A stretch of DNA of 64,000 nt. Source: Pseudooceanicola onchidii. Lineage in GTDB: Bacteria; Pseudomonadota; Alphaproteobacteria; Rhodobacterales; Rhodobacteraceae. A program made the position numbers and the translations under genes. This document shows, piece after piece, positions 17,176 to 39,560 of the stretch. The notes under the pieces are model-generated. The model searched no databases and was not told where the DNA came from. It worked only from the letters and a program-made list of their open reading frames with translations. The first letter of the stretch is position 1. Each line of letters begins with the position of its first letter. Location: positions 930,001-994,000 of the forward strand of contig NZ_SPUW01000001.1 of assembly GCF_004959925.1 (NCBI RefSeq), written 5' to 3'.

Positions 17176-17550
17176 TCAGGGATGCGTCTTGAGGAAGGCG
17201 ATGACATCGGCCACGTCGTCTTCCTTGCGCAGCCCGGCAAAGGACATCCGCGTGCCCTTCAGAAAGTCGCGCGGTTTGGCCAGATAGGCCGAAAGCGACG
17301 CCTCGTCCCAGACAAGCCCGTCCGCCGCCGCGTCCTGCAGGGCCGAGGAATAGTCGAACCCCTCCGCCGTGCCCGCCGCCTTGCCGACGATGCCGTTCAA
17401 CGCCGGTCCGGTGCGGTTCTCCGCGCCCTCGCCAACCTGGTGGCAGGCCTTGCATTTGCGAAACACCTTTTCGCCGCTTGCGGCGTCTCCGTCGGCCAGC
17501 GCCGGGGTCGCAAGCGTCAAAGCAAGAACAAGGGGCAGGGCGCGTGGCAT
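17176..17550 (-). CDS. Class I c-type cytochrome (c2/c550-like)
   Basis: A 124-residue periplasmic monohaem cytochrome. A signal peptide ends near ALADG (residue ~20), the haem site is CKACH (~33-37), and the distal Met is in GTRMSFAGL near residue 98. The ATG at 17550 follows AGGAGG. The fold resembles mitochondrial-type cytochrome c / bacterial c2. It has its own promoter region carrying the locus box (17598-17617), so it is probably an electron carrier between the quinoprotein dehydrogenase or PedF and the terminal oxidase. It converges with the ROK gene, with three bases between the stops. Confidence 0.88.
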   Translation of the reverse strand: MPRALPLVLALTLATPALADGDAASGEKVFRKCKACHQVGEGAENRTGPALNGIVGKAAGTAEGFDYSSALQDAAADGLVWDEASLSAYLAKPRDFLKGTRMSFAGLRKEDDVADVIAFLKTHP

Positions 17551-17597
17551 GGGGGATCCTCCTGGGTTTCGGCTGACCATATGCGGCGCGTGGATCG

Positions 17598-17618
17598 TGG
17601 AAAATAAGACCAAGGTCG
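17598..17618 (-). promoter_or_regulatory. Quinoprotein-locus box, upstream of cytochrome c
   Basis: Read on the minus strand, GACCTTGGTCTTATTTTCCA matches the 20-bp box found before other units of this locus; the half GACC-TT-GGTC is perfect and the ATAY part is a weaker ATTT. The box ends 47 bases before the cytochrome ATG and lies between that gene and the permease gene upstream of it. Confidence 0.55.
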
Positions 17619-17637
17619 CGGCGCACCCGTCGGCTTC

Positions 17638-18402
17638 TCAGGCCCTGCGCCAGCGCGTTGCCCGCGCCTCCAGTACCTGCAGAACGCCGTATTCCAGCAC
17701 CAGCATCAGCGCCACGAAGCTGAGCGAATAGGCCAGCACGTAGCCGGTTTCGAACAGCTGGAAATACAGGTGGATCTGGAACCCGATCCCGTTGCTGCGG
17801 CCCAGGAATTCGACCACCAGCACGATCTTCCAGATGATCGCCAGCCCGTTGCGCGTGCTGGCCGCCACAAAGGGCCAGAGCTGCGGCAGGATCACGTGCC
17901 GCAATCGCGCCAGCCCCGGCATACGGTACGCCCGCGCCATGTCCGACAGCTGCCGGTCCATGGCATGGACACCTTCGCGCAGGGTCACGGCCACCATGGC
18001 GGTCTTGTTCAGCGCCACCGCCGTGATCGCCGCGACCTCGTTCAGCCCGATCCAGAGGTAACACAGCACGATCACCACCAGCGCGGGGATGTTCAGCATC
18101 ACCACCAGCCAGGGCGACAGCCAGCGGTTCAGGCGCGGCGACAGGCCCAGCCCGACGCCGATCACCAGCCCGAAGACCATGGCCAGCGCAAACGCCAACA
18201 GAACCCGCCGCAGGGTCGCCCACATGTGGAACGGCAGCTCTCCGGCCGCGGTTTCCTGCACGGCGATCCGCCATACCTCGCCCGGGCCGGGCAGCACCGA
18301 GGGGTCGTTGCCCAGCCACGCCGCCACCACCCAGACAAGGCCAAGCGCCGCAAGCGACACGGCGACGACGGGGGCTGGGGACTGTGACGAGGGCGGGGCC
18401 AT
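17638..18402 (-). CDS. ABC transporter permease (nitrate/taurine/sulfonate SsuC-TauC family)
   Basis: A 254-residue inner-membrane permease with about six transmembrane helices and the cytoplasmic EAA-type loop DMARAYRMPGLARLRHVILPQLWPFV. The family imports small ions or organics such as taurine, nitrate or pyrimidine precursors. No ATPase or binding protein is adjacent. The only matching partners in the window are the ATPase at 31604 and binding protein at 32224, both minus strand and about 13 kb away inside the same locus. The start at 18402 is the ATG nearest the conserved N-terminus; the ribosome-binding site is weak. The locus box at 18457-18468 precedes it. Confidence 0.85.
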   Translation of the reverse strand: MAPPSSQSPAPVVAVSLAALGLVWVVAAWLGNDPSVLPGPGEVWRIAVQETAAGELPFHMWATLRRVLLAFALAMVFGLVIGVGLGLSPRLNRWLSPWLVVMLNIPALVVIVLCYLWIGLNEVAAITAVALNKTAMVAVTLREGVHAMDRQLSDMARAYRMPGLARLRHVILPQLWPFVAASTRNGLAIIWKIVLVVEFLGRSNGIGFQIHLYFQLFETGYVLAYSLSFVALMLVLEYGVLQVLEARATRWRRA

Positions 18403-18456
18403 GATCGGAACCTGCCACGGAACGCCCACGCCGCCCATACGCAAAGGCATGGGCCA

Positions 18457-18477
18457 CGACCAAGGTCGCATATGGGT
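18457..18477. promoter_or_regulatory. Quinoprotein-locus box between divergent permease and NosR-like genes
   Basis: CGACCAAGGTCG (18457-18468) is a perfect 12-bp palindrome. Reading on the plus strand it continues GCATATGGG, matching the full 20-bp box (GACCAAGGTCGCATATGGGT) in the direction of the NosR-like gene, whose ATG is 28 bases further on. In the other direction only the palindromic half is conserved, 54 bases before the permease ATG. Confidence 0.6.
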
Positions 18478-18505: not shown

Positions 18506-20608
18506 ATGATCCTGTACCGTCCCCTGTCCGTCGTCCTTGCCGCTGCCTGCATCTGGCTGGCCCTTGCGGTCGTGGCCCTGTCCGATCCCCTGCCGCGCGA
18601 CCGCATCGCGCCGCTGGTCGCCCCGCCCATGTCGCTTGGCGAAAGGATCACCGACGACGGCGTGTGGGAGCTGTTGAATTCCGGCGGGGCGCAGGCGGGC
18701 TATGTGTTCGAAACCGAACCCACGGCGCCGCTTCCCGGGTTTTCCGGCGCGCCGATCAACCTGCTGGTGGTGCTGGACCTCGACGGGCGGTTCCTTGACG
18801 TGCAGCTGATATCGCACAACGAACCGATCTTCGTGTCGGGGCTGGGGCAGGCGCCCTTTCATGCGTTCGTCGAACAGTACCGGGGCCATTCGATTTCCGA
18901 CAGCCTCGTGGTCGGAACACCCTATGGCGGGGCGACGGACGGCAGCGCGCTGGTCTACCTGGACGGCGTGACCAAGGCGACGGCTTCGGTCCGGATCGCG
19001 CATGAGACGATCCTGGCCGCCGCGCTGAAGGTCGCGCGGGAAAAGATGGGCGGTCTGTCCGCTGGCCCGCCGGCCTATCCCGATCCGACCCATGACGAAG
19101 ACCTGAGCTGGGACGACCTGATCGCCCAGGGCCTTGTCACCCGCAAGATCGTCACCAATGCCGAGGTCGACGCGGCCTTCGCCGGCACGCTCTGGGAAGA
19201 CGACGATGCCGAAGCGCAGGCCGACCCCGAAGGCACGTACCTCGATCTCTGGATCATCGACCTTGGCCCGCCTTCGATTGCGCGCGCGGTGCTGTCGTCG
19301 GGCAGCCTGCGTGAACTTCAGGGCTTCATGGAGATCGCGACGACGGACGAACCGATCCTGGTGATCGAAACCGCACGCCACGGGCTGGTGACCGAAGAGT
19401 TCATCCGCAACACCGCGCCCGATCTGCTGAGCGCGGAACAGGGCGGCTTTCCGGTCGCCCTGCGCGACGCCGACATCTATGTCGAGATGAGCGATGCTGT
19501 GCCCGAAGCGGTGCGCGACGGCACCGCCCTGATCCTGCGCACCGATCGTCGGCTGGGGTTCGATCCCACGACCGAATGGATGCTGCAGGTCAAGGCATTG
19601 CGCGAACACGGGGTTTTTCAGCCCGAAATCGGGTCGGTGCAGCTGACCGCGACCCATGTCACCGACGCCCGGTTCTTCATCCGGCCGGAATTGCCCAGAC
19701 CCGTCCCGCCCTGGCTTGAGGCGCTGCGCAACCGCCAGGCCGACCTGATCGTGCTGGGGCTGTTCATGATCGCGCTGGTCATGGCCCTGGGCTGGCGCAT
19801 GAACCGGCTGGCGGGGCATCGCCATTTCACCGCGATCCGGCTTGGCATCCTTGGCTTCGTCATCGGCTTCGTCGGGTGGTGGGGGCAGGGGCAGCTGTCG
19901 ATCGCAACCCCGCTTGGCGTGATCCGAACGCTGAAGGACGGCGGCAGCTTTGCCTTTCTTCTTTACGATCCCTTCTCGCTGGCCATCTGGGGCGTCACCA
20001 TCCTTGGCTTCTTGGCCTGGGGGCGGGGGCTTTTCTGCGGCTGGCTGTGTCCCTTCGGCGCGATGCAGGAATTTGCCCATCACCTGGGCCGCCTGCTGCA
20101 CCTGCCGCAGATCGAGGTCAGCCAAAGGTGGGATCGACGCCTGAAGGGCCTGAAATACGTGGTTCTTGTGGCACTTGTCGTCGTGGTCTTCACCGCGCCC
20201 GCGCGGCTCGACAAGGCGATCGAGGTCGAACCCTTCAAGACCGCCGTCACCACCTTCTTCCTGCGCGAATGGTATTACGTCGCCTATGCCGCCGGGCTGC
20301 TTGTGCTGTCGATGGTGCTGTTCAAGGGCTTCTGCCGCTATCTGTGTCCGCTTGGGGCGGTCATGGCCATCGGCGGGCTGCTGCGGGGCCGTGACTGGAT
20401 CGCCCGGCGCGCCGAATGCGGATCGCCCTGTCAGCTGTGCAAGGTCAAATGTGCCTACGGCGCGATCAGAAAGGACGGCGCCATCGACTATTCCGAATGC
20501 TTCCAGTGCCTGGACTGCGTGACGATCCACGACGATCCGGCGCAATGCGTGCCGCTGATTATCAGGGCACGGCGCAATCGTCGCCTGACGGGTGTTCCGG
20601 CGAAATAA
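18506..20608 (+). CDS. NosR-like membrane protein: periplasmic FMN-binding domain, transmembrane region, 4Fe-4S ferredoxin tail
   Basis: A 700-residue protein with the NosR/NirI layout. An N-terminal helix (~7-25) is followed by a periplasmic FMN-binding domain containing DGVTKATAS (153-161), the motif in which a Thr is covalently flavinylated by ApbE in related proteins (T159 here). Then come a long periplasmic region, about six transmembrane helices (~415-620) with the two CGWLCPFGA / CRYLCPLGA loops typical of this family, and a C-terminal cytoplasmic segment with two Cys clusters (CGSPCQLCKVKC and CFQCLDC). It likely moves electrons across the membrane to a periplasmic flavin. NosR serves nitrous oxide reductase, but no nos gene is near; the gene lies in the quinoprotein regulon and is preceded by its box. 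Confidence 0.85.
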   Translation: MILYRPLSVVLAAACIWLALAVVALSDPLPRDRIAPLVAPPMSLGERITDDGVWELLNSGGAQAGYVFETEPTAPLPGFSGAPINLLVVLDLDGRFLDVQLISHNEPIFVSGLGQAPFHAFVEQYRGHSISDSLVVGTPYGGATDGSALVYLDGVTKATASVRIAHETILAAALKVAREKMGGLSAGPPAYPDPTHDEDLSWDDLIAQGLVTRKIVTNAEVDAAFAGTLWEDDDAEAQADPEGTYLDLWIIDLGPPSIARAVLSSGSLRELQGFMEIATTDEPILVIETARHGLVTEEFIRNTAPDLLSAEQGGFPVALRDADIYVEMSDAVPEAVRDGTALILRTDRRLGFDPTTEWMLQVKALREHGVFQPEIGSVQLTATHVTDARFFIRPELPRPVPPWLEALRNRQADLIVLGLFMIALVMALGWRMNRLAGHRHFTAIRLGILGFVIGFVGWWGQGQLSIATPLGVIRTLKDGGSFAFLLYDPFSLAIWGVTILGFLAWGRGLFCGWLCPFGAMQEFAHHLGRLLHLPQIEVSQRWDRRLKGLKYVVLVALVVVVFTAPARLDKAIEVEPFKTAVTTFFLREWYYVAYAAGLLVLSMVLFKGFCRYLCPLGAVMAIGGLLRGRDWIARRAECGSPCQLCKVKCAYGAIRKDGAIDYSECFQCLDCVTIHDDPAQCVPLIIRARRNRRLTGVPAK

Positions 20609-20626
20609 CCCCTTTACGAGACCAAC

Positions 20627-20653
20627 AAAAAAGGCCCGCGATGAACGCGGGCC
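20627..20653 (-). terminator. Intrinsic terminator of the cox-like operon
   Basis: A perfect 8-bp stem (GGCCCGCG / CGCGGGCC, loop atgaa) is followed on the minus strand by six T residues. It lies about 95 bases after the stop of the FAD-subunit gene and terminates the coxG-S-L-M transcript. It also separates this operon from the convergent NosR-like gene. Confidence 0.85.
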
Positions 20654-20748
20654 CCAGTCCTCAGGGAGAGTGTGAACCGGCCGGGATCCGAGGGCGCGGC
20701 CGGGTCTGTGGTGCGGGCGGCGATGGAAGCCACCGCCCGCACCGACAG

Positions 20749-25073: not shown

Positions 25074-25093
25074 CGCGATATTCGACCAAGGGC
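25074..25093 (-). promoter_or_regulatory. Quinoprotein-locus box upstream of coxG
   Basis: On the minus strand the sequence reads GCCCTTGGTCGAATATCGCG, a strong match to the 20-bp box. It lies in the 75 bases between coxG and the MoxJ-like gene, 48 bases before the coxG ATG, so the cox operon probably has its own promoter there. Confidence 0.65.
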
Positions 25094-25100
25094 GTAGGCC

Positions 25101-26004: not shown

Positions 26005-26703
26005 TCAATGGGCCGCCGACAGGCCGATCGTCAGCGTTTCGGCCGCCTTTCCATAGGCGTCCTGGGTGCCGTCGATCATGTTGGCGGCGCGGTAGGCCAC
26101 CGAATCCGCCACCGGTGCGCCGGACAGGGTTTCGATACCTGTCGCGATCTCCGTCAGTCGGGTTTTCAGCGCTTCGGGGTCGGCCCCGCTGTCGTCGCTG
26201 GCATAGCCCGCCAGCTGGTCGCGGATCGCCTTCAGCTCGTCCGAGACCTCTTCCATCTGGTCGGTGTCGGGGCGCGTCTCGATATAGGTGCGGATCGCCC
26301 AGGCAGCGTCCTGGCCCAGCAGCTCTCCGAACTCGGGCATCTTGGTGATGCCGTTCTGGGTATAGCCATAGCGGAACCGTTCCACGTACCATTCGTCGCC
26401 GTATTCCTCGGCCTCGAGAAACCGCAGGTCCGGCGCCAACCCGCCCGACACGGCCTCAAGCCCATGGCAGCGCGCGCAGTTCTGGTTGTAGCCCGAGGCG
26501 CCGATCTCTACCGCCGTCTTCCAGACGTCATCGCCCACCTTGTCGGCGCGATAGGGGTTCTCGGTCAGCCAGTCTTCACCGGTTTCGGGCAGGCCGGTGG
26601 TGTCGACCGCCTGCGGCGCCACGTCGCCGTGGGCATGGGCAAGGGCGGCAAGGGCTGTAAGCGCGGCGGCAAGGCCGAACGTCCGGGGGCTGGCAAGCGT
26701 CAT
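26005..26703 (-). CDS. pedF: Cytochrome c-550 PedF, electron acceptor of PQQ alcohol dehydrogenase
   Basis: A 232-residue periplasmic cytochrome with a signal peptide (ends near AHAHG, ~24) and the start HGDVAPQAVDTTGLP typical of PedF. One haem site, CARCH (~76-80), and a likely Met ligand in KMPEF. A C-terminal helical extension (~150-232) goes beyond the haem domain. PedF accepts electrons from PQQ-dependent ethanol dehydrogenases in pseudomonads. The ATG at 26703 follows CGAGGAG. The gene is divergent from the ABC binding-protein gene at 26879, and each direction has its own locus box in the shared 175-base region. Confidence 0.85.
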   Translation of the reverse strand: MTLASPRTFGLAAALTALAALAHAHGDVAPQAVDTTGLPETGEDWLTENPYRADKVGDDVWKTAVEIGASGYNQNCARCHGLEAVSGGLAPDLRFLEAEEYGDEWYVERFRYGYTQNGITKMPEFGELLGQDAAWAIRTYIETRPDTDQMEEVSDELKAIRDQLAGYASDDSGADPEALKTRLTEIATGIETLSGAPVADSVAYRAANMIDGTQDAYGKAAETLTIGLSAAH

Positions 26704-26760
26704 ATCTGGTCTCCTCGGGCAGATGAGCGTTGGCAGGAGTTGTATGGGCCGCGCATCTTT

Positions 26761-26780
26761 CGCGGTATTCGACTTTGGTT
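26761..26780 (-). promoter_or_regulatory. Quinoprotein-locus box upstream of pedF
   Basis: On the minus strand AACCAAAGTCGAATACCGCG matches the locus box, sharing GTCGAATA(C/T)CGCG with the box before coxG. It ends 57 bases before the pedF ATG. Confidence 0.6.
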
Positions 26781-26814
26781 GGGGGGCAGGGGCGGTCGGC
26801 GCGGGCACCACTGC

Positions 26815-26834
26815 GACCTTGGTCCAATATGCCC
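26815..26834 (+). promoter_or_regulatory. Quinoprotein-locus box upstream of the Ped/Lut ABC operon
   Basis: GACCTTGGTCCAATATGCCC, one of the best matches to the 20-bp box, with a perfect GACC-TT-GGTC palindrome. It ends 44 bases before the ATG of the binding-protein gene at 26879. Confidence 0.65.
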
Positions 26835-26878
26835 GGCCCACCCCCGCCGGATAGCGTCCCCGGCAGGAGGAGACCGGG

Positions 26879-28042
26879 ATGTTCAGACGCATGGTCTATG
26901 CGGCCTTGATCGCGCTGTGTGCCGCCCAGGCGCGGGCCGATCTGACCGTGGGCATCGCCCATCTCCAGGTCGCGCAGCCCATGCCGCCGACCCTGTCGAA
27001 CCTCGATCCCGTGCCGGATGACCTTGGCCTCGCCGGTGCGCTGACGGGGCTGTCGGACAACACCACGACCGGTCGGTTCCTGGGCCAGGCCTACACGCTG
27101 GAAAGCACGGTGGTCGGCGAAGGGGACGACCCGCTGCCTGCCGCCCGCGCGCTGCTGGCCAACCACCGGTTCCTGGTCCTTGATGCAGCCCCCGAGGTGC
27201 AACTGGCCATCGCCGACATGTCCGAGGCGCAGGGGGCGCTGCTGTTCAATGCCTCCTCGGGTGCGGCGGCGCTACGGGATGGGAACTGCCGGGCGAACCT
27301 GCTGCATACGCTGCCCTCGGACGCCATGCGCACCGATGCGCTGGCGCAGGTGCTGGTGCAGAAACGCTGGACCGACCTTGCGCTGATATCGGGCACGCAC
27401 CCGCAGGACGAGGCCTATGCCGAGGCGCTGCGCCGGTCGCTGACCAAGTTCGGCCTGCGTCTGAAGGCGGAAAAGACCTGGGCTTTCGACGCCGACATGC
27501 GCCGCAACGCCGCGCAGGAGGTGCCGCTGTTCACCCAGGATCTGGGCGATTACGACGCGCTGATCCTGGCGGACGAATTGCACGATTTTGGCCGCTACGT
27601 GCTGTACAACACCTGGCAGGCCCGGCCCGTCGTCGGATCCGAAGGGCTGACGGCCGTGACCTGGAGCCCGGTGATCGAACAATGGGGCGCCGCGCAGCTG
27701 CAATCCCGCTTCCACGAAGCCCACGCCCGCGACATGCAATCCGAAGACTACGCCGCCTGGGCCGCCCTCCGCACGATCGGAGAGGCGGTGACCCGCACCG
27801 GGTCGGACGACCCACAGGTGCTGCGCGACTACATCCTGTCCGACGCCTTCGAGCTGGCAGGCTTCAAGGGGCGCCCGCTGACCTACCGCCGCTGGAATGG
27901 CCAGCTGCGCCAGCCGATCGCCGTGGCGCACCCCCGCGCCTTGGTCGCCCAGGCGCCGCTGGATGGCTTCCTGCACCGGGTCAACGAACTCGATACCCTC
28001 GGGCTGGACGCTCCCGAAAGCACCTGCGAGGCCTTCAAATGA
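26879..28042 (+). CDS. ABC transporter periplasmic binding protein of PQQ alcohol dehydrogenase systems (Ped/LutA-type)
   Basis: A 387-residue exported protein with a signal peptide (ends ARADL, ~21). The body looks like the type I (branched-chain amino-acid/LIVBP) fold but is divergent. This family is recognised as the binding-protein-like component of an ABC system encoded beside PQQ alcohol dehydrogenases; the related lut genes of Methylobacterium serve lanthanide handling. A GGCAGGAGGAG ribosome-binding site precedes the ATG. It is the first gene of a tightly coupled operon (ATGA overlap with the next gene) that runs through the permease. Confidence 0.85.
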   Translation: MFRRMVYAALIALCAAQARADLTVGIAHLQVAQPMPPTLSNLDPVPDDLGLAGALTGLSDNTTTGRFLGQAYTLESTVVGEGDDPLPAARALLANHRFLVLDAAPEVQLAIADMSEAQGALLFNASSGAAALRDGNCRANLLHTLPSDAMRTDALAQVLVQKRWTDLALISGTHPQDEAYAEALRRSLTKFGLRLKAEKTWAFDADMRRNAAQEVPLFTQDLGDYDALILADELHDFGRYVLYNTWQARPVVGSEGLTAVTWSPVIEQWGAAQLQSRFHEAHARDMQSEDYAAWAALRTIGEAVTRTGSDDPQVLRDYILSDAFELAGFKGRPLTYRRWNGQLRQPIAVAHPRALVAQAPLDGFLHRVNELDTLGLDAPESTCEAFK

Positions 28043-31603: not shown

Positions 31604-32224
31604 TCAGCCGGGCACCACGGTTGCGGGGCTGCCGTCCAGCCGGACGATACGGTCCGCCAGGTACGATGCCTCGCCCGCGTCATGGGTGACGAACAGCGTT
31701 GCGACCCCATGCCGGTCGCGCAGGCGCAGGAACAGGTCCATCATCTCGCGCACCAGCGCGGCGTCGAGCGACACGAAGGGTTCATCCAGCAGCAGCAGAT
31801 CCGGCGCCACGGCAAAGGCCCGCGCCAGCGCGACGCGCCGTTGCTGGCCAAGCGACAGCTGGCCGGGATAGTCACCGTCCCGGCCCGCCAGTCCGACCTC
31901 GGCCAGCATTGCCTCGGCGACATCGGGCGGGGCGCCGGTCGGCAGGCAGATGTTGTCGCGCAGGGATCGCCAGGGCAGAAGGGCCGGTTCCTGGAACACC
32001 ACTGCCATGCGGCCCGCCACGTGCAGCGTGCCCTCGAACCCGTCCTCGAGCCCCGCGAAGATCCGCAGCAGTGTCGTCTTGCCGATCCCCGACGGCCCGA
32101 CCAGCGCCAGCGTCTGGCCCGGGTGCACCGTCAAGGTGACGTCGCGCAGAACGGCACGACCGCCGCGCGAGAATGAGGCAAGCTCAAGCCGCGCGACGAC
32201 AGGGGGGGCGGAACCGTCGGGCAT
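31604..32224 (-). CDS. ABC transporter ATP-binding protein (nitrate/taurine/sulfonate family)
   Basis: A 206-residue compact ATPase of the SsuB/TauB group: Walker A GPSGIGKTT, Q-loop FQEPALLPW, signature LSLGQQRR and Walker B LLLLDEPF, switch VTHD. It is about 30-50 residues shorter than usual members, lacking most of the C-terminal tail. Its ATG touches the stop of the upstream binding-protein gene. Its membrane partner is not adjacent; the only permease of this family in the window is at 17638-18402. Confidence 0.87.
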   Translation of the reverse strand: MPDGSAPPVVARLELASFSRGGRAVLRDVTLTVHPGQTLALVGPSGIGKTTLLRIFAGLEDGFEGTLHVAGRMAVVFQEPALLPWRSLRDNICLPTGAPPDVAEAMLAEVGLAGRDGDYPGQLSLGQQRRVALARAFAVAPDLLLLDEPFVSLDAALVREMMDLFLRLRDRHGVATLFVTHDAGEASYLADRIVRLDGSPATVVPG

Positions 32225-33198
32225 CAGCCGCCCGGCGACAGGAAGACACCCTGCGGCAGGGTGGTGGCCTCTCCGACCAGCTCGGATCCGCCAAGGCGGG
32301 CCATCAGCGCCAGCATCCGCGCGGCGGCCTCTTCATCGATCGGACCGGCGTCGGGGATGCCGTCCCGGAAGCCCGCCTTCAGTGCCTCGAACTGCGCGTC
32401 GGTCTTGACGTTCATCACGGGCCGCAGGCGGTCCCATTCGGCGTCGTCCCCGGCCAGGCGTTCCTTGGCGGCGCGGCTGGCCTGGGCAAAGCCTTCGACC
32501 ACGGCGCGGTTGTCGCGCAGGTAGTCCCCCTTGACCACATAGCCCAGCAGCGGGGTGTTGGGATCAAGGCCAAGGGCGGTCGAGGCTTCGGCCACGGTGA
32601 TCAGGCTGCGCATCCCGGCGGCCTGCATCTTGGCGTTGAAGTGCCAATAGTTCAGCGCCCCGTCGACCTCGCCCGAGAGGGCGGATTTGAAGATCAGCGG
32701 CGGCGCGCCAAAGACCTGTTCGGTGTCGGCCTTCAGGTCCATGCCGAATTCCTGTTCCGCGTAGGCCTGCAGGATGAGCCAGCTTTTATCCAGCGGCCCG
32801 CCCGCGATGCCGATGGATGTGCCCTTCATGTCCGACAGGCTTTGCGCCGGGCTGTCCTGTTTGACCAGCATCCCCCCGACCGCGCGGGAATAGGGGATGA
32901 AGACATAGTCCTTGCCCGCTGCCCGCTGCCGCGCGACCCACAGCCAGTCCGTGACCATCGCATCGGCCTCGCCACCCTGAAAGGCGATCTGGCTGGCCGA
33001 TCCGCCGGCCATGCCCTGTACCTCCATCCGGAAGCCGTTGGCGGTGTCGTCACCATGATGGGCGATGCTGTCGAGCTCCCAGTTGACGGTGCCGAACTTG
33101 AGCACGGCGATGCGGAAGACCGGGTTTTCGGCCTGCGCCGCCGCGGTGGTGAACAGGCCGCAGACGGCGGCCATCAGGTAGATCTTGATCCGTTTCAC
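32224..33198 (-). CDS. ABC transporter periplasmic binding protein (SsuA/TauA/NMT1-like)
   Basis: A 324-residue periplasmic protein with a signal peptide (ends AAAQAEN, ~23). The mature part starts FRIAVLKFGTVNWELDSI and has GGEADAMVTDWLWVARQR, typical of the NMT1/SsuA fold that binds small organic molecules such as sulfonates or pyrimidines. The ligand here is unknown; in this setting a PQQ- or metal-related or alcohol-derived compound is conceivable. The upstream region (33199-33552) is shared with the alcohol dehydrogenase gene and contains locus boxes. Confidence 0.86.
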   Translation of the reverse strand: MKRIKIYLMAAVCGLFTTAAAQAENPVFRIAVLKFGTVNWELDSIAHHGDDTANGFRMEVQGMAGGSASQIAFQGGEADAMVTDWLWVARQRAAGKDYVFIPYSRAVGGMLVKQDSPAQSLSDMKGTSIGIAGGPLDKSWLILQAYAEQEFGMDLKADTEQVFGAPPLIFKSALSGEVDGALNYWHFNAKMQAAGMRSLITVAEASTALGLDPNTPLLGYVVKGDYLRDNRAVVEGFAQASRAAKERLAGDDAEWDRLRPVMNVKTDAQFEALKAGFRDGIPDAGPIDEEAAARMLALMARLGGSELVGEATTLPQGVFLSPGG

Positions 33199-33372: not shown

Positions 33373-33431
33373 GTAGACCCGCCGCCCCACGGCACGGACG
33401 GGCCAGCAAATCAAGGGGCATGGGGTCGTAC

Positions 33432-33451
33432 GACCAAGGTTCAATACCCCG
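33432..33451 (+). promoter_or_regulatory. Quinoprotein-locus box upstream of the PQQ dehydrogenase
   Basis: GACCAAGGTTCAATACCCCG is a strong match to the 20-bp box. It lies 101 bases before the dehydrogenase ATG and immediately ahead of a TTGACA element at 33461, a placement that fits a transcription activator site. Confidence 0.65.
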
Positions 33452-35365: not shown

Positions 35366-35444
35366 TCTGCATGTCGGGGTCCTGTCTGCGGCCTAATACC
35401 TTTTGGTAAGATCCCCATTGCGGATTAATGGCTATAGTGGGGGT

Positions 35445-36152
35445 ATGAAACCACAGCAGGCCCCCATGACCGACCCAAGCCCCCAACCGTCCATCGGTCG
35501 ATGGGCGCTGATCGTCGACGACCACCCCCTGTTCTGCGACGCGCTGGAACTGACGCTGAAATCGGTCGCCGATTTTGCGATCGTGCGCACCGCCAACAGC
35601 CTTGCCGCCGCGCTTGAGGAACTGGACGGCCTGCCGGACCCGGGGATCATCCTGCTGGATCTGAACCTGCCGGACGTCAGCGGGCTGGACGGGCTTTTGC
35701 GCCTGAAACGCGCGGCAGAGGGGGCGCAGATCATCATCGTGTCCTCGATGACCGAAAATGCGGTCATCAATTCGGCCATCGCTGCGGGGGCCGCGGGCTA
35801 CGTGCCCAAGCATTCCAGCCGCGCGACCTTCAAGGAGGCGATGGACCGCATCGCCGAAGGCGCGGTCTACAAGCCCGGCGGCTTTGTCGAAGGCGAGGGC
35901 GAGGACACCTTGCCCGACACCGACAGCATCGAACGGCTGGCCTCGCTCACCAACCAGCAGGCGCGGATCCTGCACCTGATCTGCGAAGGCAAGCTGAACA
36001 AGCAGATCGCCTATGACCTGTCGATCGCCGAAACCACGGTGAAGGCGCATGTCACCGCGATCATGCGCAAACTTGGCGTGCACAGCCGGACGCAGGCCGT
36101 TCTGGTTGCGAACGAGGTGAAGTTTACAACCCTATTGCCAAGCCAGGATTGA
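35445..36152 (+). CDS. LuxR-type response regulator, AgmR/PedR1/ErbR-like
   Basis: A 235-residue two-domain regulator. The receiver (~18-135) has IVDDHPLF and the phosphoacceptor D72 in LLDLNLPD; a LuxR-type HTH (~165-225) includes NKQIAYDLSIAETTVKAHV and RKLGVHSRTQAV, close to the AgmR/ErbR regulators that activate PQQ alcohol oxidation in pseudomonads. The frame opens at 35403; I chose the ATG at 35445 where GTGGGGG precedes it, and ATG 35466 is also possible. It lies between the dehydrogenase and a FIST-kinase pair, so it is the best candidate for the protein that binds the repeated locus box. GACCAAGATT at 35323 is a weak box upstream. Confidence 0.87.
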   Translation: MKPQQAPMTDPSPQPSIGRWALIVDDHPLFCDALELTLKSVADFAIVRTANSLAAALEELDGLPDPGIILLDLNLPDVSGLDGLLRLKRAAEGAQIIIVSSMTENAVINSAIAAGAAGYVPKHSSRATFKEAMDRIAEGAVYKPGGFVEGEGEDTLPDTDSIERLASLTNQQARILHLICEGKLNKQIAYDLSIAETTVKAHVTAIMRKLGVHSRTQAVLVANEVKFTTLLPSQD

Positions 36153-36183
36153 CGACCCTATCGTTGTGGAAGGGAGGCCACAA

Positions 36184-37353
36184 TTGGTACACAAGGACAG
36201 GGGCGCGCCGTCGGGCGCGCAGCATTCGCTGTGTCGCGCGCAGGTCTCTGCGCATGATCCCCGAGCCGTGGACAAGCTGCGCGCGGGACTGGGCCCCGAT
36301 CCGCTGGCGCTGGTCATCCTCTTCATCTCTCCGCAAGCTGATTTCCAGGCGACCGTGTCGTCGATCCGGGCGCACTACCTGCACACCGATGTCGTCGCCT
36401 GCACCACGGCCGGAGAGATAGGCGCAGGCGGCTACGTCGAAGGCGAGATCATCGCCGTGGGCTTTCCGGCGGACCACTTCGCCACGACTTCGATCCTGAT
36501 CGACGGGCTGTCGGAACAGACCCCCCAGGGGGTCCTGGACCGGATCGCGCTGGCCCGCCTGGCCCTGCAGGAGGGCAACCTGGACAAGCCGCACGGCTTT
36601 GCCTTCCTCGCCATCGACGGGCTGTCGCTGCGCGAGGATACCCTGACCTCGGTCATCGCGCCCGCCCTGCGCGACATGCCGCTGTTCGGCGGATCGGCCG
36701 GGGACGGCATGGATTTCGCCCATACGGTGGTGTCGTTGAACGGCGCGGTGCGGCAGGATGCGGCCGTCCTGACGATGATCCAGACGGATCACCGCACCAA
36801 GGTCTTCAGCATCGATCACCTTGTGCCGACCGAAAAGCAGATGGTCGTCACCGGCGCGGATCCGGACCGCCGCATCGTGAAATCCATCAATGCCGAACCG
36901 GCGGCGCGCGAATACGCCCGGCTGGTCGGCAAGGATCCCGACCAGCTGGACCGTTTCACCTTTGCCTCGCACCCGGTGGTGGTTCGCATCGGCGACAGCC
37001 ACCATGTCCGCGCCATCCAGCAGGTGAACGAGGCCGGAGAGCTGGTGTTCTTCTCGGCCATCGACGAGGGCATGGTGCTGACCGTGGCCGAACCGCGCAA
37101 CATGGCCGAACACCTGCAGGAACAGCTGGACCAGATTGCTGAATCCGGCGGGCTGACCGATATCCTGGGGTGCGACTGCGTGTTGCGCCGGATCCAGGCC
37201 GAACAGATCCAGGCCACGCGGGACCTGTCGGATATCCTGGCCAGCCACAAGGTCATCGGCTTTTCGACCTACGGCGAACAGATCGGGCCGCTGCATGTCA
37301 ATCACACGATGACGGGCGTGGCCATCTATGCGCAGGACCCGGGCCGGTCGTGA
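36184..37353 (+). CDS. FIST-domain sensory protein
   Basis: A protein of about 389 residues with the FIST N domain (including TTAGEIG near residue 75) and FIST C domain (from ~225, ending GFSTYGEQ near 365). FIST proteins are intracellular small-ligand sensors coupled to signalling proteins. I favour the TTG at 36184 since AGGGAGG precedes it at ideal spacing; the frame extends to a GTG at 36166 with no such site. Its stop overlaps the start of the hybrid kinase (TGATG), so it probably supplies the sensory input for that kinase. FIST-kinase pairs beside AgmR/ErbR-type regulators also occur in the ethanol-oxidation loci of pseudomonads. Confidence 0.85.
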   Translation: MVHKDRGAPSGAQHSLCRAQVSAHDPRAVDKLRAGLGPDPLALVILFISPQADFQATVSSIRAHYLHTDVVACTTAGEIGAGGYVEGEIIAVGFPADHFATTSILIDGLSEQTPQGVLDRIALARLALQEGNLDKPHGFAFLAIDGLSLREDTLTSVIAPALRDMPLFGGSAGDGMDFAHTVVSLNGAVRQDAAVLTMIQTDHRTKVFSIDHLVPTEKQMVVTGADPDRRIVKSINAEPAAREYARLVGKDPDQLDRFTFASHPVVVRIGDSHHVRAIQQVNEAGELVFFSAIDEGMVLTVAEPRNMAEHLQEQLDQIAESGGLTDILGCDCVLRRIQAEQIQATRDLSDILASHKVIGFSTYGEQIGPLHVNHTMTGVAIYAQDPGRS

Positions 37354-39560
37354 TGCCGACCTCGCTGATAAACCCCGAAGACAGTCTGGAACGACAGAAC
37401 GAAAAGCTGCTTCAGATCGTCGGGGCGCTGATGCGCAAGGTCGAGAAGAAGAACGAACAATCCAGCGTGGCCTATGCCCAGTTCGAACGCGCCGCCATGC
37501 TGGAAGTGCAGGTGCGCGAACGGACCATCGACCTGGAACGTACGCTCGACCTGCTGCAGGAATCGAACGCGCGGCTGGAAGCGGCGAACCGCGAAACCCA
37601 GATCGCGCGGGAAAACCTGATCGAGGCGATCGAGACCGTCAGCGAAGGCTTTGCGCTTTTCGGTCCCGACGACCGGCTGGTACTGTACAACAGCCGGTTC
37701 TGTCGCGAACTGTCGGATGTCGAACCCCGCCTGCAGGAAGGGCTGACCTTTTCGAACTATGTCCGGCTGATTTCCAACAGCCGCCACCTGTCGCTGCCCC
37801 CGCCGATGACGCCGCAGGCCTGGGCGACGCAGCGCACCCGTCGCCACCGCGACGACCGCGTGGTCTTCAACGTCAGCCTGACCTATGACCGCTGGCTGCA
37901 GGTCAGCGAACACCGCACCCTGCGGGGCGGCACCGTGATCCTGCAGACCGATGTGACCAACATCATCCGGCTGGAACGCAAGGAACGCGAGAAGATGCGG
38001 GACGAACAGGCCCGCATCCTGCAGGCCACGCTCGACCACCTGAACCAGGGCGTGTGCATCTTCGACCGCAACAACGATCTTGTCGGTTGGAACAAGCGGA
38101 TGGATTACCTGCTGGATCTGCCGCCGCAGGAACTGGCGCTTGGCCGCAACTTCATGGTCCTGCTGCAGCGCCTGCGTGACCAGCTGGATTTCGACGGCGA
38201 TTTCGACGGCGACATGCTGATCAGGTGGGCCGAGAACAAAGAAGGCCGCCCCCCCGTCGCCTTCGAGGTCATCCGCGCCGAACGCCAGATCCTGAGCGTC
38301 TTCGCGCAGGAGATGCCGGACCGGGGCTTCGTGATCAGCTTTACCGACGTCACTGCCGAACGCGAAGCCACCCGCGCCCTGTCCGAGGTGAACGAGATGC
38401 TGGAGCGGCGTGTGCAGGACCGCACCAAGGAGTTGGGCATCGCCCTGGCCGAGGCCGAGCGGGCCAATGCCTCCAAATCACGCTTTGTGGCCGCCGCCAG
38501 CCATGACCTGCTGCAACCCCTGTCGGCGGCCAAGCTGTTCATCAACTCGCTCGCGGGCAGCGTCGAAAATGCCGGGCAGCAGGATGTCATCGCCAAGGCG
38601 GAAAGCGCGCTGTCGAGCGTCGAACAGATCATCGAGGCGCTGCTGGATATCTCGCGCCTGGATGCGCGGCGGCCCAGTTTCGACCTGCGCACCGTGCGGC
38701 TTTCGGCAATCCTCGATCCGCTGCGGGACGAACTGACCCCGGTCGCGGCGGCCAAGGGGATCGACCTGCGCGTCATCGGGTCCGGCCTGTCGGTGCGCAG
38801 CGACCCGGGCTACCTGCGCCGGATCATCCAGAACCTCGTGTCGAACGCGATCCGGTATACCGACCGGGGCAGAGTGCTGGTCGGCGTGCGCCGTATCGGC
38901 AGTGTCGCGCGGGTGCAGGTCTGGGACACCGGGCGCGGCATCGCCCCCGAGGACCAGCAGGCGATCTTCCAGGAATTCAGGCGGCTCGATACCAGTCATG
39001 ACGTCAACAGCCTCGGGCTTGGCCTCGCCATTGTCGAACGGGCCTGCAAGAGCCTTGATCATCCGCTCGGCCTGACCTCCGAACCGGGGAAGGGCAGCCT
39101 GTTCACTGTCGATCTGCCGATGCGGCAGGGGGTGGCCGAAAAGCTGCCCAAGGCCCCGATCCTGCGCCGCCAGGTGCCGCAGCTGAACGGAGAGATCGTC
39201 TTTCTGGTCGAGAACGACGAGAACCTCGCCAAGGCCGTGACGCTGACCATCGAAGGCTGGGGCGGAGAGGTCATTCACGCCTGGAACGGCGAAGAGGGCC
39301 TTCAGCTTCTGTCCGAGATCGACCTGAGGCCGGATGCGCTGGTGCTGGATTACCAGCTGGGCGACGGCATGACCGGGCTCGAGCTTCTGGCGCGCATCCG
39401 CGCCCTGCATGGCGACGTGCCTGCGCGCATCGTCTCGGCCAACCGCGGGGCGGATCTGCAGGCGGCCTGCCACGAGGCCGACGTGGTCCTGATGCCCAAG
39501 CCGATCGACTGGACGCAGTTCTTCACCTTCCTCAGCGAAGCCACCCTGCCGCGCGGCTGA
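37353..39560 (+). CDS. Cytoplasmic hybrid sensor histidine kinase (ErcS-like)
   Basis: A 735-residue soluble kinase with no membrane segment. It has an N-terminal coiled coil (~10-90), two PAS-like domains (~92-205 and ~225-335), a second short coiled coil, HisKA with H384 in AASHDLLQPL, an ATPase domain (DTGRGIAP, LGLGLAI), and a C-terminal receiver domain (VLDYQL Asp, LMPKPID Lys). The HDLLQPL box is typical of hybrid kinases of this class. It is translationally coupled to the FIST gene. Likely flow: FIST ligand signal, kinase, then the LuxR-type regulator at 35445. Confidence 0.9.
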   Translation: MPTSLINPEDSLERQNEKLLQIVGALMRKVEKKNEQSSVAYAQFERAAMLEVQVRERTIDLERTLDLLQESNARLEAANRETQIARENLIEAIETVSEGFALFGPDDRLVLYNSRFCRELSDVEPRLQEGLTFSNYVRLISNSRHLSLPPPMTPQAWATQRTRRHRDDRVVFNVSLTYDRWLQVSEHRTLRGGTVILQTDVTNIIRLERKEREKMRDEQARILQATLDHLNQGVCIFDRNNDLVGWNKRMDYLLDLPPQELALGRNFMVLLQRLRDQLDFDGDFDGDMLIRWAENKEGRPPVAFEVIRAERQILSVFAQEMPDRGFVISFTDVTAEREATRALSEVNEMLERRVQDRTKELGIALAEAERANASKSRFVAAASHDLLQPLSAAKLFINSLAGSVENAGQQDVIAKAESALSSVEQIIEALLDISRLDARRPSFDLRTVRLSAILDPLRDELTPVAAAKGIDLRVIGSGLSVRSDPGYLRRIIQNLVSNAIRYTDRGRVLVGVRRIGSVARVQVWDTGRGIAPEDQQAIFQEFRRLDTSHDVNSLGLGLAIVERACKSLDHPLGLTSEPGKGSLFTVDLPMRQGVAEKLPKAPILRRQVPQLNGEIVFLVENDENLAKAVTLTIEGWGGEVIHAWNGEEGLQLLSEIDLRPDALVLDYQLGDGMTGLELLARIRALHGDVPARIVSANRGADLQAACHEADVVLMPKPIDWTQFFTFLSEATLPRG

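Follow-up and report, generated by a model that had tools for sequence, protein, structure and literature searches.

The 64,000-nucleotide stretch of Pseudooceanicola onchidii DNA analysed here (hereafter the window) carries, at 18506..20608 on the forward strand, a gene for a NosR-like membrane iron-sulfur flavoprotein. No nos genes lie near it, as the earlier note on this DNA had remarked, and its neighbourhood is a PQQ alcohol oxidation system, molybdenum hydroxylase genes included. Is this protein a NosR at all, and if not, what does a protein built in this way do in an alcohol-oxidation locus?

The open reading frame is real: it starts with ATG, shows a coding-like GC content at third positions and encodes 700 amino acids, the end coordinate counting the stop codon. 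The NCBIfam NosR profile NF046105 matches the protein over positions 20-680 of its 680 (E = 9.6e-132) with a score of 440.6 bits, below the equivalog cut-off of 1000. The whole NosR layout read from the sequence in the earlier note is thus confirmed, with two CX3CP motifs (C511 and C515, 20036..20050; C610 and C614, 20333..20347) and two C-terminal Cys clusters (C638, C642, C645 and C649, 20417..20452; C665, C668, C671 and C681, 20498..20548), all on the forward strand; all twelve Cys are invariant across 28 orthologs. In Pfam, the protein matches Fer4_5. By the motif logic of known ApbE targets, DGVTKATAS (residues 153-161; 18962..18988, forward strand) is the predicted FMN attachment motif, and Thr159 the predicted flavinylated residue. 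Note that Thr159 is invariant in 28/28 orthologs and that a Lys stands where Gly or Ser is usual in the ApbE target motif.

As to the domain that would carry the flavin, Pfam FMN_bind is found at E up to 0.1 in 19 of the 28 orthologs (best 0.0009), the window protein itself being unmatched, and RnfG is the top solved-structure match for both the profile and the model, a weak one (E = 0.003) followed by Ig-like matches; the fold search found no solved NosR relative. From this weak profile and fold match, RnfG and NqrC appear to share the same type of FMN-binding domain, but they have no fused polyferredoxin-type membrane domain and belong to different complexes. An AlphaFold model of the protein (mean pLDDT 75, pTM 0.60) has low confidence both in residues 138-155, which form the flavin loop, and in the Fe-S region, and therefore does not settle the mechanism.

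We compared the protein with its relatives in the window's family (295 genomes). The matches there split cleanly in two, the orthologs having 52-78% identity and the NosR/NirI proteins about 33% at most. In a tree of 67 proteins (quick search, SH-aLRT support values, midpoint root), 31 proteins, 23 alphaproteobacterial and 8 gammaproteobacterial, are split off by a branch with an SH-aLRT of 100, and NosR together with NirI lies on the opposite side. We call this clade, found in alpha- and gammaproteobacteria, K-type after the Lys in its flavin motif, DG[VI][ST]KAT[AV]S, to which the exceptions include DGVTKGTAS, DGVTSATIS and DNVSKATVS; the corresponding motif is SGATVT in NosR and mostly ISRATVS in NirI. 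Close K-type relatives (about 75% identity) are also carried by Sulfitobacter and Pseudosulfitobacter plasmids, where '4Fe-4S binding protein' is their sole annotation.

With the NosR of nitrous-oxide respiration, the K-type protein has in common the full-length architecture, the two CX3CP motifs, the two C-terminal Cys clusters and an FMN motif. It differs from Rhodobacteraceae NosR by an identity of about 30%, by [ST]KAT[AV]S in place of SGATVT and by its separate clade; moreover, the window's genome yields no match to NosZ, and the partner that we propose is a PQQ alcohol dehydrogenase. Neither a grouping with genuine NosR nor a nos operon elsewhere in the genome, the two observations that the earlier note had set against its own proposal, was found, and the genome holds no second NosR homolog. 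The tree, with its SH-aLRT 100 separation from nos-operon NosR, and the gene neighbours exclude a genuine NosR. NirI offers a precedent, as a NosR-like protein that has come to serve a different periplasmic enzyme, the cytochrome cd1 nitrite reductase NirS; some of its loci also have an ApbE gene close by. It carries a different motif, lies on the NosR side of the tree and has NirS as neighbour; the window protein neither is NirS-linked nor groups with NirI, which is excluded on the same two grounds.

The locus itself contains the proposed partner, a PQQ-dependent alcohol dehydrogenase (TIGR03075; 33553..35316, forward strand) that bears the GWDYDG lanthanide-type Asp signature and adjacent C124/C125 and is encoded 13 kb from the Fer4_5 protein. 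Between them, on the forward strand, lie a PQQ-system ABC substrate-binding protein (TIGR03863; 26879..28042), a PQQ-associated beta-propeller protein (TIGR03866; 27682..29004, a longest ORF that overlaps the preceding gene), a PQQ-system ABC ATPase (TIGR03864; 29033..30175, also a longest ORF, with the domain from about residue 146) and a PedC-type ABC permease (TIGR03861; 30172..30963). Two cytochromes c are encoded on the reverse strand: the cytochrome c550 PedF (TIGR04494, above cut-off; 26005..26892, longest ORF, its true start probably downstream of its own box) and a c550 CycA-like c-type cytochrome (17176..17613). The divergent neighbour of the NosR-like gene is an SsuC-like ABC permease (17638..18471, reverse strand, longest ORF), and the rest of this SsuABC-like transporter, an SsuB-like ATPase (31604..32224) and an NMT1/THI5-like substrate-binding protein (32224..33198), both on the reverse strand, is found at 31.6-33.2 kb, away from the permease at 17.6-18.5 kb. 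The three genes are contiguous in four other loci (L066, L068, L069 and L072). As an obligate partner, the split transporter was rejected, the SsuC-like permease being the direct divergent neighbour in only 61 of 121 loci.

The genes of the locus are further connected by a short upstream sequence. The box that the earlier note had placed ahead of the NosR-like gene is real: ACCAAGGTCGCATA occurs at 18459-18472, inside a 20-nt box at 18456..18475 (forward strand) that ends 30 nt before the ATG. The longest ORF of the SsuC-like permease overlaps this box, so that its true start is probably downstream. When ACCWWNGTCNNATA is searched with at most one mismatch, six matches are obtained in the window against 0.57 expected, a number reached in 0 of 100 shuffles, and all six lie within the alcohol locus, each pointing at a locus gene. 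Besides the one described, they precede the cytochrome c gene (17600..17619, reverse strand), the CoxG-like and molybdenum hydroxylase genes (25076..25095, reverse strand), the PedF-type cytochrome c550 gene (26763..26782, reverse strand), the PQQ-ABC substrate-binding protein gene (26813..26832, forward strand) and the PQQ alcohol dehydrogenase gene (33430..33449, forward strand). Note that the box of the cytochrome c gene (17176..17613) overlaps the start of its longest ORF, which indicates that the gene probably starts further downstream. Of 123 alphaproteobacterial K-type orthologs, 79 have a box of the ACCWWNGTCNNATA form upstream of the gene, at a median of 31 nt from the start. This conserved box is the mark of a regulon, and the ErdR-like response regulator encoded downstream of the dehydrogenase (35403..36152, forward strand) is a candidate for its reader.

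Does the K-type protein follow the dehydrogenase from genome to genome? Among the 295 genomes of the family, a K-type protein is present in 59 and an ortholog of the PQQ alcohol dehydrogenase in 57, both occurring together in 55, the former alone in 4 and the latter alone in 2 (Fisher odds ratio 1609, p = 3e-52, a p-value that ignores shared ancestry). The four genomes with the K-type protein only include two with contig-edge matches and two incomplete assemblies (76% and 81%). NosR/NirI, in contrast, displays no association with the dehydrogenase in the same genomes (odds ratio 1.25, p = 0.51). In 13 of the 55 genomes, the K-type and dehydrogenase genes do not share a contig at a distance of 25 kb or less: in 4 they stand on the same contig but at least 130 kb apart, and in 9 on different contigs, where fragmentation may hide linkage; the box is kept upstream of 7 of the 8 unlinked K-type genes examined. 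The recruitment to an alcohol-oxidation system proposed in the earlier note is thus borne out, in phylogeny and neighbourhood alike, by a separate clade (SH-aLRT 100) that is tied to the dehydrogenase and co-inherited with it in these 55 genomes. The same pattern bears on the idea that the protein is a leftover NosR, a relic or a spare, of a denitrification operon since lost. Its distant similarity to NosR would fit such an origin, which we nevertheless rejected as highly improbable in view of the separate clade, the missing NosZ, the conserved Cys and motif residues, the conserved box and a strong co-inheritance with the dehydrogenase that NosR/NirI does not show.

Outside the window's family, a Pseudomonadaceae-like family (f44) was surveyed with a K-type assignment requiring at least 44% identity to L203, five partial or fragmented matches being left out. 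There, the dehydrogenase is found in 33 of 33 genomes with a full-length K-type protein, compared with 145 of 248 overall; 112 of these 145 have no K-type protein, which is therefore not a universal requirement. In gammaproteobacteria, the K-type gene comes directly downstream of the dehydrogenase gene in L213 and L214, and in L250, L252, L258 and L259 it stands at one end of the exa/ped cluster, adjoining NahK-NosP.

Taken at the level of sequence, the K-type protein has the architecture of NosR, stands in a clade of its own, is co-inherited with the dehydrogenase and shares its upstream box with the alcohol genes. It very probably serves the periplasmic PQQ alcohol dehydrogenase as a dedicated redox accessory in the membrane, and not nitrous oxide respiration. 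This degree of confidence covers the accessory role; the direction of electron flow is judged separately below. The motif, with Lys where NosR has Gly, was counted against an accessory role with the predicted flavinylation.

As to the metal of the dehydrogenase, GWD[YF]DG is present in 32 of the 32 alphaproteobacterial dehydrogenase stretches read. A lanthanide-specific accessory is nevertheless not supported as a rule, three K-type gammaproteobacteria (L250, L253 and L254) displaying only Ca-type dehydrogenase signatures in the stretches read. In two other gammaproteobacterial loci (L251 and L257), dehydrogenases with GWDYDG and with AWDFSG are encoded beside one K-type gene, and the accessory there may serve both metal types.

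The partner could in principle be another member of the regulon, for instance the beta-propeller protein (TIGR03866) or the molybdenum hydroxylase. The propeller protein is strongly conserved in K-type loci, has four invariant His across 85 relatives and gives a weak score against the profile of the lactonase-type (clade III) N2O reductase (53 bits for a cut-off of 700), which is probably due to shared propeller repeats only. However, its family is general to PQQ alcohol dehydrogenase systems, as the profile name says, and no more than about 50 of 121 K-type loci have molybdenum hydroxylase genes in view. We consider such a partner unlikely and retain the dehydrogenase.

In this accessory role, the protein would first need its flavin. 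An ApbE gene follows the K-type gene in 116 of 121 alphaproteobacterial loci (oriented tblastn layout), and one of these copies (L094), confirmed with Pfam, starts with RRRFL as in Tat signals. In the window, a gap of 140 bp (20609..20748) stands in place of the Tat-signal ApbE gene, with no ApbE-like sequence left in the window, whereas Pseudooceanicola atlanticus, the nearest named relative, has the same gene order with ApbE present. ApbE is also missing after the K-type gene in L057, L093, L148, L152 and L163. Since the dedicated enzyme is missing, flavinylation would have to come from the genome's single ApbE, encoded outside the window, so that a flavin transferase is available. The genome's one other FMN_bind gene lies 3.3 kb from this ApbE and, on account of this proximity, probably encodes NqrC. 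Paracoccus NosX was reported not to be replaceable by NirX (PMC7660919), whereas P. stutzeri NosR is served by a non-dedicated ApbE; the Paracoccus case and the missing dedicated ApbE count against the accessory reading, and flavinylation in trans is here something that we infer. ApbE would thereby attach FMN to Thr159, the membrane part and the Fe-S clusters would link the quinone pool or the cytoplasm to this periplasmic FMN, and the FMN would exchange electrons either with the dehydrogenase itself or with a partner on which the activity of that enzyme depends.

The recruitment of a NosR-like protein to alcohol oxidation is not new as such. The earlier note had held this role to be undescribed for NosR relatives, a claim that is not supported: NapH/NosR-like flavinylated proteins were reported with ExaA in 172 genomes, in associations that arose several times, and were proposed as the route by which the alcohol oxidase passes its electrons to the respiratory chain, a task performed by cytochrome c in other microbes (Meheust et al, 2021, eLife; PMC8238504). 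These ExaA systems resemble the K-type loci in that an FMN-binding and membrane Fe-S protein is encoded with a PQQ alcohol oxidase, and the K-type clade is probably included among the 172 genomes; they differ in that the clusters were picked via flavinylation genes and in the place proposed for the protein, that of cytochrome c. In the literature searched, no direct report came up on NosR in connection with lanthanides or PQQ. What is new here is the clade, its motif, the co-inheritance when unlinked, the shared box and the retention of c550.

This last point bears on the direction of electron flow. With the K-type protein as electron acceptor, a proposal already published for exaA clusters (PMC8238504), the flavin would oxidise the dehydrogenase and the Fe-S clusters would deliver the electrons to the quinone pool, in replacement of c550 or beside it. 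The dehydrogenase does need an acceptor. Transfer from PQQ to ubiquinone is known, moreover, in the membrane-bound PQQ glucose dehydrogenase, while ApbE-type flavins, usually lower in potential than PQQ or ubiquinone, count against such a path. Among the 97 K-type loci in which the alcohol cluster is in view, 94 retain the cytochrome c550 PedF, and in the window both PedF and another c-type cytochrome are encoded, each gene preceded by a box. This argues against the flavoprotein as a simple replacement for c550 in the K-type clade; replacement is disfavoured and a parallel route still compatible. NosR itself has been proposed as an electron donor toward the periplasm (PMC7660919), the opposite of an acceptor. 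Taken together, we regard an acceptor function as possible, and rather doubtful.

Electrons may instead be supplied from quinol or the cytoplasm to the periplasmic FMN, keeping the dehydrogenase, PQQ or an assembly factor competent. Such a reductive activation is suggested by the analogy with NosR, which is needed for whole-cell N2O reduction and not for Cu-centre assembly (PMC7660919), by the kinship of the K-type clade with NosR and NirI and by the retention of c550. The many dehydrogenase-bearing gammaproteobacteria without a K-type protein argue against it. To our knowledge, moreover, no such step has been described for PQQ alcohol dehydrogenases, nor any electron-supplied activation or maintenance step for quinoproteins in general. 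We place this activation just short of an even prospect. Regarding direction alone, a flow toward the periplasm that keeps the enzyme or cofactor active appears to us about evenly poised, and is favoured over the reverse path, from the enzyme into the quinone pool, a lesser though serious possibility, because the usual acceptor c550 is retained and because NosR, by analogy, is proposed as a donor to NosZ.

A broader idea can be formulated from the enzymes that the three clades would serve. NosZ (CuZ), NirS (heme d1) and the PQQ alcohol dehydrogenase all have a propeller fold. It is conceivable, though on balance improbable, that every NosR-like clade has its own beta-propeller oxidoreductase in the periplasm, one whose propeller axis holds an unusual cofactor, and that the K-type protein feeds electrons to the PQQ enzyme so as to activate or maintain it. 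As far as we know, cytochrome c is the only acceptor that PQQ alcohol dehydrogenases, those of the lanthanide type in particular, require; a co-inherited flavin and Fe-S membrane protein beside cytochrome c is an unaccounted-for component of these systems. With its defined clade, motif and regulon, the K-type protein is directly testable by deletion.

The locus also encodes sensory proteins on the forward strand, a NosP/FIST-type sensor (36166..37353) and an NahK/ErcS'-like hybrid histidine kinase (37170..39560, longest ORF). Their counterparts adjoin the K-type gene in the four gammaproteobacterial loci with the gene at the cluster end, and their presence near it hints at a nitric oxide or heme signal.
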